Shown: positions 34,786 to 43,458 of the stretch, piece after piece | Layout: each line of letters begins with the position of its first letter | Position numbering within the stretch: position 1 is the first letter of the stretch | Source of the DNA: Chloroflexota bacterium | Lineage (GTDB): Bacteria; Chloroflexota; Dehalococcoidia; Tepidiformales; Tepidiformaceae | Assembly: GCA_026705605.1 (NCBI GenBank) | Contig: JAPPAK010000001.1 | Span: 682,001 to 746,000 of the forward strand | DNA length: 64,000 nt | Direction: 5' to 3' | Translations under genes and position numbers: made by a program | The notes under the pieces: model-generated | The model's input: only the letters and a program-made list of their open reading frames with translations | What the model was told of the DNA's origin: nothing | Databases searched by the model: none

Positions 34786-35430
34786 CTGAGCGACGAACCA
34801 GCCACCGAAAACCTCTGGCTCGCGGAAGAGCTCTGGGAGCTTGGCGCCGTCGAGTTCGGCAACTTCACCCTCGGCCGCACGACGGTTGACTCACCGATTT
34901 ACATAAACCTCCGCAAGCTCATCAGCAGCCCCCACGCGCTCCAACGCTGCGCCGACATCATCCGGGTCAAGCTCGAGGCGCTTGTTTCCATGCGCCACCC
35001 CCAGGTGCAGCCGTTCACCCTCGTCGCGGGCGTCCCCTTCGGCGGCCTTCACGTCGCGACGGCGTTCTCCCTGCACGTCAGCACGCCGATGATCTACATC
35101 CACCCGCCCGGCACCGCGAAGGAAGACCTGATCGAGGGGAACTACGTCCGCGGCCAGTCCTGCCTCATCATCGACGACCTCATTACCGGCGGGGGCAGCA
35201 TCATCCAGACGGCGGAGGCTCTCGCCGAGGCGGGCCTTGTCGCGCACGACGCCGTCACGCTCATCGACCGCCAGGAAGGCGGTCGTGCAGCCCTCAAGGC
35301 GAAGGGCATCAACCTGGTCAGCATCCTCACGCTCGACCAGATCGCGACCTACCTGCGCTACTCGGGCCGCATCGAGGCGCCCGACTACGAGCGCGTCGTG
35401 CGATACATCCAGGCCAGCCAGGGCGCCTAG
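34786..35430 (+). CDS. Orotate phosphoribosyltransferase-like protein, probable CTG start
   Basis: About 214 residues of a type I PRTase. The PRPP loop is CLIIDDLITGGGSII; the N-terminal SPIYINLRKLISSP and VAGVPFGGLHVATA match orotate PRTases of the longer, UMP-synthase-like type. It would convert orotate plus PRPP to OMP. No in-frame ATG, GTG or TTG fits: CTG 34786 has GGGAGG at 34772-34777 at 8 nt spacing and is the best start. It is the most complete candidate for the cell's pyrE, since the copy beside lepB is only a remnant and the one at 41700 lies in a foreign-looking cassette. Confidence 0.8.
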   Translation: MSDEPATENLWLAEELWELGAVEFGNFTLGRTTVDSPIYINLRKLISSPHALQRCADIIRVKLEALVSMRHPQVQPFTLVAGVPFGGLHVATAFSLHVSTPMIYIHPPGTAKEDLIEGNYVRGQSCLIIDDLITGGGSIIQTAEALAEAGLVAHDAVTLIDRQEGGRAALKAKGINLVSILTLDQIATYLRYSGRIEAPDYERVVRYIQASQGA

Positions 35431-39919: not shown

Positions 39920-41122
39920 CTACCAGCGCTGCCCCGGCGGCGCGTCGATGAGCGCCTTCTCCGCGATCGCTTCCGGCGCCGTCGCCCCCGCCGCCCACGG
40001 CCAGCTCCCCTCGTCCGGTGCGAATGCCCCCGGCGTCGCCGACACGATCGCCGCCGCCATCGCCAGGGTTCGGCGCGTCCCCGCGACGTCGTGCACGCGG
40101 AAGACGCGCGCGCCCTGCGCGTACGCAAGCGCCGTCGTGACGTGCGTCTCGAGGTCGCGGTCCTCGGGACCGGCTCCCGAGACGCTGCCGATGTAGTTCT
40201 TGCGCGAGTGCGCCAGCAGCAGGGGCTGTCCCGCCGTGCGCACTTCGGAAAGGCGACGGAGCGACTGGATGTCCTCGTCGTGGCTCTTCCCGAAAGCGAT
40301 CCCCGGGTCGATGGCAACGGCCTCCCGCTGCAGCCCCGCCGCCTCCAGCTCCGTCAGCCGCTCTGCCATCCACCCAACCGTCTCCGCGACCACGTCCTCG
40401 TACACGGGCGCGGGGTCGGGGCGGTGCTTCGGGACCGTGTAGCTGTAGTTCAGCACGTACCCGGTCCCGCCCTCGGCCGCCGCTTCCGCCGCCTCGGTCC
40501 CCAGCGTCAGCCCGCTGATGTCGTTGACGATGGCAGCCCCGCTCCCGATTGCCGCCTCCGCCACCTCGCGCTTGTACGTGTCGATCGAGACGAGGTGCCC
40601 TTCCCCCACCAGCGCCGCCACCACCGGCGCCGCGATCGTAGCCTCCGCCTCCGCCTCCAGTTGCGGACGGCTCGCCCGCGCCGTCTCCGCCCCCACGTCG
40701 ATGATGTCCGCCCCCTCCGACCGGAGTCGCGCGGCGTGGGCCAGCGCCGCCGTCACGTCCGTCCCCACCCCATCCCCCGAAAAGGAGTCGTCGGTCAGGT
40801 TCACGATGCCCATCACGAGGGGCTGGTCCAGCGCCAGCTCGTGCGGCCCCGCCCGCCACCGCAGGACCGGGGACAGGTAGCGCGTCAGCGGCGCCGACAG
40901 CGGGCTCTGCCGCCGCTCCAGCTCCGCCGCCAGCCGTCCGAGGTCGCCGGCGCTCGCCGACACCCGGCCCGTCCCCTCCGCCACCGTCAGGCCGAGCCCG
41001 AGCGCGCTCGTAGCCAGCGCCAGCCGTTCGAGGTCGTCCCCGAAGTAGGCGATGTGCTCGGCCTCGCCGTCCGTCGCCAGCGCCCACTCCGCCGGCGGGA
41101 CGGCTCGCAGCAGCGGGGTCAC
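39920..41122 (-). CDS. folP: Dihydropteroate synthase with N-terminal extension
   Basis: About 400 residues. The pterin-binding TIM barrel begins near residue 125 with LVMGIVNLTDDSFSGDG, then IIDVGAETARASR, IVNDISGL and LLLAHSRKNYIGSV. The usual TPDSFSDGG is TDDSFSGDG. It joins p-aminobenzoate to hydroxymethyl-dihydropterin in folate synthesis. The first about 120 residues (from TPLLRAVPPAEWALATDG) are an additional domain seen in some Chloroflexi and Thermus-type proteins. GTG 41122 overlaps the stop of the DinB gene as GTGA. Confidence 0.88.
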   Translation of the reverse strand: MTPLLRAVPPAEWALATDGEAEHIAYFGDDLERLALATSALGLGLTVAEGTGRVSASAGDLGRLAAELERRQSPLSAPLTRYLSPVLRWRAGPHELALDQPLVMGIVNLTDDSFSGDGVGTDVTAALAHAARLRSEGADIIDVGAETARASRPQLEAEAEATIAAPVVAALVGEGHLVSIDTYKREVAEAAIGSGAAIVNDISGLTLGTEAAEAAAEGGTGYVLNYSYTVPKHRPDPAPVYEDVVAETVGWMAERLTELEAAGLQREAVAIDPGIAFGKSHDEDIQSLRRLSEVRTAGQPLLLAHSRKNYIGSVSGAGPEDRDLETHVTTALAYAQGARVFRVHDVAGTRRTLAMAAAIVSATPGAFAPDEGSWPWAAGATAPEAIAEKALIDAPPGQRW

Positions 41123-41619
41123 CGGCGCGGAATCGGGTCGAGGCCGAGCATGCGCCGGGCCTGCCAGAGGTGCTCGAGGTCGTGCTTGTACAGGTCGCGC
41201 ACCAGGTCGATGAGCGCAACCTCGCCCCGGTAGGGGTGCATCGCCGTCCGCTCCCACTCCATCTGCGAGAGCCCCCAGAGCGAATACGACGTGTCCTGGC
41301 GCGCGTGGGAGAAGCCCGAGATCGCCTCGTCGATGCTCACGTACTGGTAGTCCTCCGGGAAGGGGATGTTGTCGAGGTCGATGTTGCGGATGGGCGCGAA
41401 GGGCCGCCGCAGGATCGTTTCGAACTGCTGGGTGGTTTCCCGCTCCACCTCGCGCAGGTGGAACGCGATGGCGAGCAGACACCACCCCTCGTCCTGCCCC
41501 TCCCCCGGCTCTCGCGCCTGCCGCTCGCTCGTCGACCAGAGCAGGCCGCGCAGCTCACCCGCCGCTTCTCCCAGCGCCTTCAGGAGAAACCGGTCGCTGC
41601 TGGTGGGGGCTTCCTGCAT
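41119..41619 (-). CDS. DinB-like metal-binding protein
   Basis: A 166-residue four-helix-bundle protein of the DinB/YfiT superfamily. Likely metal ligands are His in IAFHLREVE and two His in YKHDLEHLWQAR. Members act as thiol transferases or hydrolases, but function is open here. TAGAAT ends 6 nt before ATG 41619, so it may be leaderless. Its stop overlaps the folP start, forming a coupled pair. Confidence 0.8.
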   Translation of the reverse strand: MQEAPTSSDRFLLKALGEAAGELRGLLWSTSERQAREPGEGQDEGWCLLAIAFHLREVERETTQQFETILRRPFAPIRNIDLDNIPFPEDYQYVSIDEAISGFSHARQDTSYSLWGLSQMEWERTAMHPYRGEVALIDLVRDLYKHDLEHLWQARRMLGLDPIPRR

Positions 41620-41631: not shown

Positions 41632-41645
41632 CGAACCCTGCCAAC

Positions 41646-41679
41646 CCCACCCGCGGCTCAGGTAGTCACGAGGGGTGGG
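41646..41679. repeat. 7-bp inverted repeat after the cassette OPRT gene
   Basis: CCCACCC 41646-41652 and GGGTGGG 41673-41679 are complementary with a 20-nt loop. It lies about 20 nt beyond the stop of the OPRT-like gene and could end its transcript, though no T-tract follows. It also marks roughly the end of the lower-G+C cassette. Confidence 0.3.
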
Positions 41680-41699
41680 TGACTGTAGGGCAGGCGAAG

Positions 41700-42326
41700 C
41701 TAGCTCGCGATCGCGGGGGCCAAGCCAGTTGAGGAAGGTCCGAGGTTGCCCTTCTTGTCGAGATCCGCGACAGCGTAGAAGTGGGGCGCGGCCTTGCGAA
41801 TACCCTCTGCTCGGTCATCGCCCCTGTCGATCAAGACCAGTACACCCTGCACGTGGGCTCCCCGTTCCCGAACTTCTGCGATGGCACGTCCAATGCTCCC
41901 CCCCGTCGTCATCACGTCGTCGACTATCAACACCTCTGTGCCCTTCGACAGGAGTTCTCGTCCATCTTCTCTAAACGATTGGTAGACCCGTTCCTTGGTC
42001 CCGTGTGTCTTGGCGCTGTCCAAGACATAGAACCCTTCTAGCTTTGACTTTGCGGTGAACGTCGCGTACGCGACGGCGGCGTCCGAGATGGGGATGGAAC
42101 CGACAGCCAGCCCCCCTACGGCCTCGGCACCGATTTTCGTTGCGAATTCCCAAACCACCTGCCCGACTAAGGGCATGCCTTCGTAGGACTGCGTAACTCG
42201 CTTGCCGTCGAAGTAGACTTCGCTGCCCTCACCCGATGCCAGCTCGAAGCGAGTACCTGCATCTCGGTTGACGCGCGCGAAGCGGTCCAGGAGGTCAATG
42301 AGCTTGTCCCGCGTCTCGTCAACCAA
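41700..42326 (-). CDS. Orotate phosphoribosyltransferase-like protein in a lower-G+C cassette
   Basis: A 208-residue PRTase. FELASGEGSEVYFDGKRV, GLAVGSIPISDAAVAYA, the flexible loop DSAKTHGTKERVYQSF and the PRPP loop VLIVDDVMTTGGSI are all laid out as in orotate PRTases. The usual RKxxKxHG loop is altered (LDSAKTHG), so specificity may differ. Base composition is clearly more A+T-rich than the flanks. Directly upstream lies a pyrE N-terminal remnant, so this gene seems to sit where the native pyrE was. Confidence 0.8.
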   Translation of the reverse strand: MVDETRDKLIDLLDRFARVNRDAGTRFELASGEGSEVYFDGKRVTQSYEGMPLVGQVVWEFATKIGAEAVGGLAVGSIPISDAAVAYATFTAKSKLEGFYVLDSAKTHGTKERVYQSFREDGRELLSKGTEVLIVDDVMTTGGSIGRAIAEVRERGAHVQGVLVLIDRGDDRAEGIRKAAPHFYAVADLDKKGNLGPSSTGLAPAIAS

Positions 42327-42487
42327 TTTCTCGCTCCTCTGAATCGCGAGATTGTAAGGTCGGCAGCTTGGGGAAACTGACGTAATCCTCCAAGCTCTGA
42401 TCAGAATCGGGGCGAACTTGTCTGAAGTTTAATACTAGACATAGACACGTCTAAGGAATAGGGCTTTGTCTGGCGTCGCCCCTCAGA

Positions 42488-42559
42488 TCACTTGAGCTTG
42501 AAGTGCCCTTGCAGCATCGCGCCGCGCTCTTCGAGCTGCTCGCGGAGGCCATCGCTCAC
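42488..42559 (-). pseudogene. Truncated orotate phosphoribosyltransferase N-terminus (pyrE remnant)
   Basis: GTG 42559 overlaps the lepB stop as GTGA and opens 23 codons ending TGA at 42488. The peptide runs from VSDGLREQLEERGA to MLQGHFKLK. LLxGHFxLxSG is the conserved start of PyrE, so this reads as a PyrE N-terminus broken just before the SGRHS part. After the break the base composition drops and no OPRT sequence follows in any frame until the unrelated copy at 42326. It may be translated as a short coupled peptide. Confidence 0.65.
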
Positions 42560-43458
42560 GGTTCCGATGGCTCCGCTGGTTCGTCCGGCTCCGGTGGTTG
42601 CGACGGAGTCGACACGGCTGTCCCCGTCAGCTCCGCGCCCCCGTTCGGCGCCAGCCCGAAGGAGTCGAACGGCCAGTAGCGAAGCAATGCCTTCCCCACG
42701 ATGCGTTCTCGCGGCACCAGCCCGATTCGTCCGCTGCGGCTGTCCTGGCTGCTGTTCCGGTTATCCCCCAGCACGTAGTAGTGCCGCGCCGGGATCAGGA
42801 TCTCGGCGCGCGTGTCGCTCCACGTTTCCGTGATGTACGGCTCGTTCAGCAACTGCCCGTTGATATACACCCGCCCCTGCACGATCGCGATGCGTTCCCC
42901 CGGCAACGCGATGACGCGTTTGATGAGGTCGTTCCCGCTGCCCGCCGAGCTTTCGAAGACGATGATGTCGCCCCGCTCGGGCCCGCCGAATACCTGCCGC
43001 ACGTCGCCGTCCTCGGCATCGACGAACGGGATGAAGTCCGTCAGCCGGTCCATGTTGACCTCGGCGTAGCCCAGCTTGTTCACGAGGATGTGCTGGCCGT
43101 GGTCGAGCGTGGGGAACATCGAGTACCCCTCGACGAGGTAGTTCTGCAGGCTCGCCCTCACCGCCAGGAACACGAGCAGCGCCAGCAGGGCCGTCTCGAT
43201 GATCTCCCGGATCCACTTACGGCCGCGGTCCGGCTTCTCCGCCACCGCCTCCACGGCCACGCCCTCCGTCCACGAGGGCACCAGGAAGGCCTCGGCCTCC
43301 AGCGCGGGAAGCTCGTTGGCCGCTGGTTCCCGGCCCGAGACGGAGCGCGCTTCTGCCACGGGCGGCATCATGCCGCCGCCGATGATCGGGGCGGCCTCGT
43401 CGCCTGGATCCGTTTCCTCAGGCTGCGAGCCGGGAGCGCGTTCGTCTTCGGAAGCCAC
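42556..43458 (-). CDS. lepB: Signal peptidase I
   Basis: A 300-residue membrane peptidase that cuts signal peptides at the outer face of the membrane. A long Pro/Glu-rich cytoplasmic tail (about 85 residues) precedes one membrane helix (IIETALLALLVFLAVRASL). Box B is EGYSMFPTLDHG with the catalytic Ser; Lys is in NDLIKRVIALPGE; box E is YYVLGDNRNSSQDSR. GTG 43458 is the start, with TAGGCT 6 nt upstream. Its stop overlaps a pyrE remnant start. Confidence 0.95.
   Translation of the reverse strand: MASEDERAPGSQPEETDPGDEAAPIIGGGMMPPVAEARSVSGREPAANELPALEAEAFLVPSWTEGVAVEAVAEKPDRGRKWIREIIETALLALLVFLAVRASLQNYLVEGYSMFPTLDHGQHILVNKLGYAEVNMDRLTDFIPFVDAEDGDVRQVFGGPERGDIIVFESSAGSGNDLIKRVIALPGERIAIVQGRVYINGQLLNEPYITETWSDTRAEILIPARHYYVLGDNRNSSQDSRSGRIGLVPRERIVGKALLRYWPFDSFGLAPNGGAELTGTAVSTPSQPPEPDEPAEPSEP

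Follow-up and report, generated by a model that had tools for sequence, protein, structure and literature searches.

In the genome of a Chloroflexota bacterium (G000; genomes are given below as G numbers and families as f numbers), the window analysed here, a stretch of 64,000 nucleotides, holds a lepB gene whose stop codon overlaps the first codon of a pyrE-like reading frame. This frame breaks off early, and a complete orotate phosphoribosyltransferase (OPRT) gene of a different kind follows. How did one OPRT gene come to lie within the remains of another? The best reading is recurrent xenologous displacement in situ, inside pyrE. We put at about 87% the probability that a foreign OPRT (type B) displaced the native pyrE (type A) in situ behind lepB in the lineage of G000 and G006, and now performs the orotate step. 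The features on which this reading draws are given below.

42556..43458, minus strand: lepB, signal peptidase I (TIGR02227, 146 bits against a cut-off of 47); its stop overlaps the pyrE start (GTGA).
42494..42559, minus strand: 5' fossil of the native type-A pyrE, codons 1-22 (ungapped match to G003 pyrE; genome search).
41676..42493, minus strand: inserted segment, in place of pyrE codons 23 to 180 (junctions from the alignment of G003, G001 and G006; composition).
42327..42401, minus strand: leader of the incoming gene, under constraint, with AGGAG ahead of the TTG start (identity between G000 and G006).
41700..42326, minus strand: incoming type-B long-loop OPRT, 208 aa, loop LDSAKTHG (TIGR00336 below cut-off; OPRT fold; dN/dS 0.06).
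41658..41675, minus strand: 3' fossil of the native pyrE, last five codons and stop (alignment; shuffles).
41119..41619, minus strand: DinB_2-like gene, the slot's right flank (PF12867, E 4.8e-4, 21 bits, below the cut-off of 24.8; by synteny, the neighbour that follows pyrE in relatives).
34786..35430, plus strand: type-C OPRT-like paralog, outside the replacement (sequence; presence in relatives).

Read along the minus strand, lepB is followed by a pyrE start of 22 codons, an insert of 818 bp that contains a complete OPRT gene, the five final codons of pyrE and the DinB-like gene. From the GTG at 42559, which shares bases with the lepB stop, the frame reads MSDGLREQLEERGAMLQGHFKLK and then a stop codon. 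A preliminary description of this DNA had taken the frame as 23 codons of pyrE; codons 1-22 (42559-42494) and the overlap with lepB stand, but codon 23 and the stop are insert DNA, which closes the frame at 42488, and the alignment places the start of the insert at 42493 rather than at 42487. The 22 codons align without gaps with the intact pyrE of G003 at a score reached by none of 1000 shuffles, and a genome search with intact pyrE recovered them (E 1.2e-5, 79% identity). At the far end, 41675-41658 reads P-L-V-T-T-stop, five codons that the preliminary description had overlooked, so that the survival of the pyrE 3' end is an addition to it. The score of this 3' fossil was reached by 3 of 1000 shuffles in G000, where it is short, and by none of 1000 in G006. 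The type-A profile alone scored the start fossil of G006 weakly (E 0.39, against 0.0038 in G000), and support for the low-scoring fossils of G006 and G262 comes from DNA comparison with close relatives, not from that profile. Because two different assemblies, G000 and G006, share the structure, a single assembly error is unlikely.

Type-A pyrE stands behind lepB in seven of the nine genomes of the genus (G001, G002, G003, G004, G005, G007 and G008, counting G002 although its contig ends inside pyrE), and the insert is present in two, G000 and G006. In the seven, the RTGA overlap opens pyrE itself, and a DinB-like gene then follows in six (the G002 contig ends earlier). Elsewhere in family f1, the lepB locus was examined in 13 genomes, and type-A pyrE lies behind it in 12; G023, also of f1, has type-A pyrE on another contig. 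Among eight lepB loci outside f1, type A comes next in G024, G028 and G031, no OPRT is found in G026, G030 and G039, and the sequence stops before this can be judged in G025 and G027. Type A also follows lepB in G160, G099, G190, G171, G201 and G296. Since it does so across f1 and in outside genomes, lepB-pyrE is probably the ancestral order. The displaced gene is of type A, that is of TIGR01367 (pyrE_Therm), which the G003 copy passes with 159 bits against 150.25; unlike its relatives with the intact gene, G000 keeps only the ends. Intact lepB-pyrE without the cassette, the comparison proposed in the preliminary description, was thus found in close relatives at the same position, and it supports a replacement of native pyrE in place.

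The complete, different OPRT at 41700-42326 proved real, with a TTG start and membership of another family. Its best family is TIGR00336 (pyrE), which it resembles in fold and PRPP motif; it differs in its long loop, its replaced loop Arg and its score of 90.3 bits, below the curated cut-off of 106.8. Among the genes found in the same slot in other genomes, those of G291 (101.8) and G139 (100.4) also fail and that of G262 (123.9) passes. In a 92-row tree, from which near-duplicate and short rows had been removed, types A and B separate with support of 99/98 (bootstrap not settled; long-branch warnings), which places the newcomer in another clade than the native gene. In this tree, of the kind that had been suggested as a check, the three OPRT sequences fall into three separate clades.

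The inserted gene has a GC of 0.604 and a GC3 of 0.712, against a GC3 of 0.83-0.94 in the 15 other genes of the region that were measured, in agreement with the A+T-richer composition reported earlier. Between G000 and G006 it shows a dN of 0.026, a dS of 0.443 and a dN/dS of 0.06, and is under purifying selection. The dS of 15 flanking genes in the same pair is 0.08-0.30, below the 0.44 of the insert; amelioration or an older split may account for the higher value. Of the final 75 nt of the leader, 72 are identical in the two genomes, although the gene itself differs at 34 of its 109 fourfold sites; because of this difference in divergence, the incoming gene apparently came with a control region of its own, and 42327..42401 is probably its promoter and 5' UTR. 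No sigma-70 consensus promoter was found in the f1 leader (G000/G006). TTGACA-18 sites occur once each in the inserts of f70 and f59 described below (10/12 matches), and f59 has a second (9/12). An RNA element in the leader was considered and set aside, Rfam giving sub-threshold matches only.

The predicted structure of the inserted OPRT (pLDDT 88.8) has OPRTs as its best PDB matches, the top one being that of Mycobacterium tuberculosis (PDB 5hki, TM 0.70/0.82). Arg94 and Lys95 of the M. tuberculosis enzyme contact pyrophosphate and Lys98 is key in catalysis (PMC5430920); these residues align with Leu102, Asp103 and Lys106 of the insert. The two proteins are therefore alike at the catalytic Lys, which is K103 in Escherichia coli (PMC10087573), and unlike at both contact positions. 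The PRPP motif, LIVDDVMTTGGS, is retained together with K106 and H108. The altered loop LDSAKTHG pointed out in the preliminary description thus keeps its catalytic Lys and has lost an otherwise invariant Arg: this Arg, which contacts PRPP, is present in 45 of the 47 aligned type-B rows, the exceptions being G000 and G006. The change from Lys to Asp beside it was rejected as special to the inserted gene. That Lys is kept in just 13 of the 47 rows, and its loss is ordinary among type-B OPRTs; only the loss of Arg stands out.

Searches of G000 for the two neighbouring pathway genes gave matches to PF01180 (pyrD) and PF00215 (pyrF). A genome search of the 94% complete assembly found no type A or type B beyond the insert and the fossils, so that fossils are all that was found of the native gene; another OPRT could lie in the missing sequence. 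Beyond these, the OPRT-type matches comprise type C and hits to PRTases that do not exceed 24 bits. Type B occurs with neither A nor C in G139, G080 and G191 (search of 11 genomes), and no type A was found in any of nine type-B genomes listed (G000, G006, G262, G139, G350, G256, G358, G056 and G082). Two f1 genomes, G010 and G016, hold both types, so type B does not always displace A. The dN/dS of 0.06 and the pathway context bear on a kept function, here a predicted activity. Because no other canonical OPRT was found in G000, type C is without the loop pattern and three genomes gave type B without A or C, the orotate step in G000 is most likely carried out by type B. Its activity is not certain, since the loop Arg that contacts PRPP is lost and the score lies below the TIGR00336 cut-off.

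In a side observation on the same pathway, the PyrF of G000 (L120) shares 95-96% identity with its counterparts in G003 and G001 but only 76% with that of G006 (L127); in G006, pyrF is apparently a second pyrimidine gene to have been replaced.

Two further explanations concern the function of the pieces. That the short coupled peptide might serve as a regulator of lepB was suggested in the preliminary description, and the overlapping GTGA is indeed kept in G000 and G006, with 5 of 48 gap-free aligned nucleotides differing. In G006, however, the peptide has lost 12 nt and ends differently, and seven of the nine genomes of the genus use this start for pyrE itself, a full gene. The regulator is therefore not supported and extremely unlikely, and the peptide is the decaying start of pyrE. 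It is also very doubtful that type B is not the working OPRT, pyrE having been lost, the type-C paralog having taken over and type B doing something else. In favour of this, the insert's loop has lost its Arg, and type C is OPRT/UMPS-like in sequence and strongly conserved (dN 0.000-0.008 to G006, G003 and G001). Yet the RKxxKxHG loop pattern is lacking at 34786 as in all ten aligned type-C sequences, the insert retains K106, H108 and the PRPP motif, and three genomes hold B without A or C. Moreover, type C is present in 11 of 11 genomes of one survey, nine of which keep type A, which was thus not made dispensable there; in another survey it is present in 7 of 11. The type-C gene is an old paralog common to relatives, and its presence in those with intact pyrE takes away its value as a sign of changed dosage, as which it had been tentatively read. 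Type C (34786-35430) is widespread in the class beside type A or B, and its PRPP motif is changed (DDLITGGGS).

The displacement is not confined to one lineage. We took the surroundings of 113 type-B loci, from all 115 class genomes with a hit minus G000, G006 and G010 (G262 contributing two loci); 110 had at least 600 nt upstream. At eight loci, lepB lies directly upstream on the same strand (lepB profile built without the lepB slice of G350): G139, G350, G264, G256, G287 and G358 in f2, G262 in f70 and G291 in f59. In G370, another f2 genome, the sequence ends inside the gene. The type-B gene of G262 sits between a type-A start fossil and a 53-nt end fossil, each with a score against G171 and G201 that none of 1000 shuffles reached (E 0.39 and 3.3 by the type-A profile alone); these two congeners have intact type A behind lepB. 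In G291 (L310 2559-3359), the type-B gene directly precedes the last 36 type-A codons and stop (37.7 bits), and no type-A start can be recognised; intact type A lies behind lepB in G190, a member of the same family. In f2, six genomes have type B in the slot and G024 has type A, and no fossils were found behind lepB, either by eye in the translated spacers or with the type-A profile. In-place displacement of A by B with fossils is thus seen in three families, and in a fourth (f2) by position. The newcomer has the orientation of lepB in each case, and that of the fossils where seen. All ten slot-resident genes have a loop longer than the common short form, G291 least so. GC3 of type B is below that of lepB in G262 (0.77 vs 0.86) and G291 (0.63 vs 0.75), although overall GC in G262 is above that of lepB (0.65 vs 0.61); the GC3 comparison is mixed in f2, with G350 higher and G264, G139 and G358 lower.

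Two of the type-B genomes have further peculiarities. The slot OPRT of G262 (L191 3137-3628) has Cys for Ser in the PRPP motif (TTGGC) and Cys for Asp in the usual DR, and a second type-B gene lies elsewhere in that genome. In G010 (L150 8150-11087), the type-B gene is part of a segment whose GC is mostly 0.54-0.65 and which extends to the end of a contig with a GC of 0.69, and intact type A is found elsewhere in that genome.

A random hit on a 0.56-kb gene in a genome of 2-3 Mb would be expected about once in 5000, and repeated landing in pyrE therefore calls for targeting, selection or slot-to-slot transfer. At the PRPP motif, types A and B in f1 agree over 27 of 30 nt (the score is 21, and the highest of 200 shuffles was 15), which could have served as a recombination anchor in f1, not in the other families; as a general explanation a homology anchor was rejected, since f70 and f59 show nothing beyond shuffles. 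A mobile element (transposon, integron or phage cassette) was likewise rejected: the insert is one gene with no recombinase and only weak short repeats. No viral relatives were confirmed in 2.9 million viral contigs, and the best identity was at most 34% in phage and 36% in plasmid records. No close donor was found in the 57 loci from genome_contigs (identity drops to 34-42% in those that rank next by E-value behind the sister contig), in 393 class genomes, or in 400 phylum genomes at E 1e-50 or better; the nearest relative is in G010, at about 40%.

Two accounts of the recurrence have to be weighed. Type-B genes already behind lepB, for example in f2, might have spread from slot to slot by recombination in shared flanks, the landing site being inherited from the donor. 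We regard this as unlikely, though a serious contender: type B follows lepB in six f2 genomes, and a branch with unstarred support of 88/72 has the slot genes of four families and that of G010 together on the same side, but the visible breakpoints fall within native pyrE rather than lepB, the fossils of each host match its own relatives, the G010 gene lies elsewhere, and the ten slot genes without G010 were rejected as one clade (p-AU 0.012). The long-branch rows Synspong and PlanctoBJ17 were left out of the tree behind these two values. A more speculative account, which we consider improbable, makes the lepB-pyrE slot a natural hot spot where mobile long-loop OPRTs of one lineage overwrite pyrE time and again. 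This would be selected because a single step both removes the old enzyme and supplies a new one, for example where the old enzyme activates a toxic orotate analogue and the new one tolerates it, as a natural counterpart of 5-FOA counter-selection.

Under displacement in situ, the reading that we prefer, a foreign long-loop type-B gene would have come into the chromosome within the type-A pyrE that lay behind lepB. It stands in place of codons 23-180, with both ends of the old gene left as fossils; with its own leader and ribosome site, it would now do the orotate step between PyrD and PyrF. We infer the newcomer's OPRT activity, the direct takeover and the route of entry into pyrE. On the lepB side, 76 shared sites pair G000 with G006 against 46 and 31 for the other pairings, and the DinB side shows no preference (46, 59 and 49). 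One insertion in the ancestor of G000 and G006 is the simplest reading; a gain in an older ancestor followed by restoration in G003 is possible. Because the DinB-side sites do not clearly pair G000 with G006, the age of the event and its single origin are tentative.

In-place displacement is usually inferred from trees, its traces being already gone. Xenologous gene displacement in situ was reportedly described by Omelchenko et al. in 2003. The concept is also found in a further source (PMC1274311). As in such displacement, the native gene has disappeared and its position is taken by a foreign homolog of presumably the same function; unlike it, both ends of the displaced gene survive here around the newcomer, and three families carry fossils of such an event at one locus. 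Our search of the literature on displacement, pyrE, orotate analogues, sponges, illegitimate recombination and Chloroflexi OPRT, which covered few subscription journals, found no recurrent pyrE displacement. With broken ends of the old gene bracketing or following the new one in three families, the breakpoints can be read and compared. The loop change poses the question of how an OPRT works without the Arg that contacts PRPP. Recurrence inside one gene is not expected of random insertion, and it allows a test between targeted recombination, transfer from slot to slot and selection acting on the old enzyme to its disadvantage. The event is of a known kind, and its fossils are unusually clear; what is new and surprising is that it recurs at one slot.
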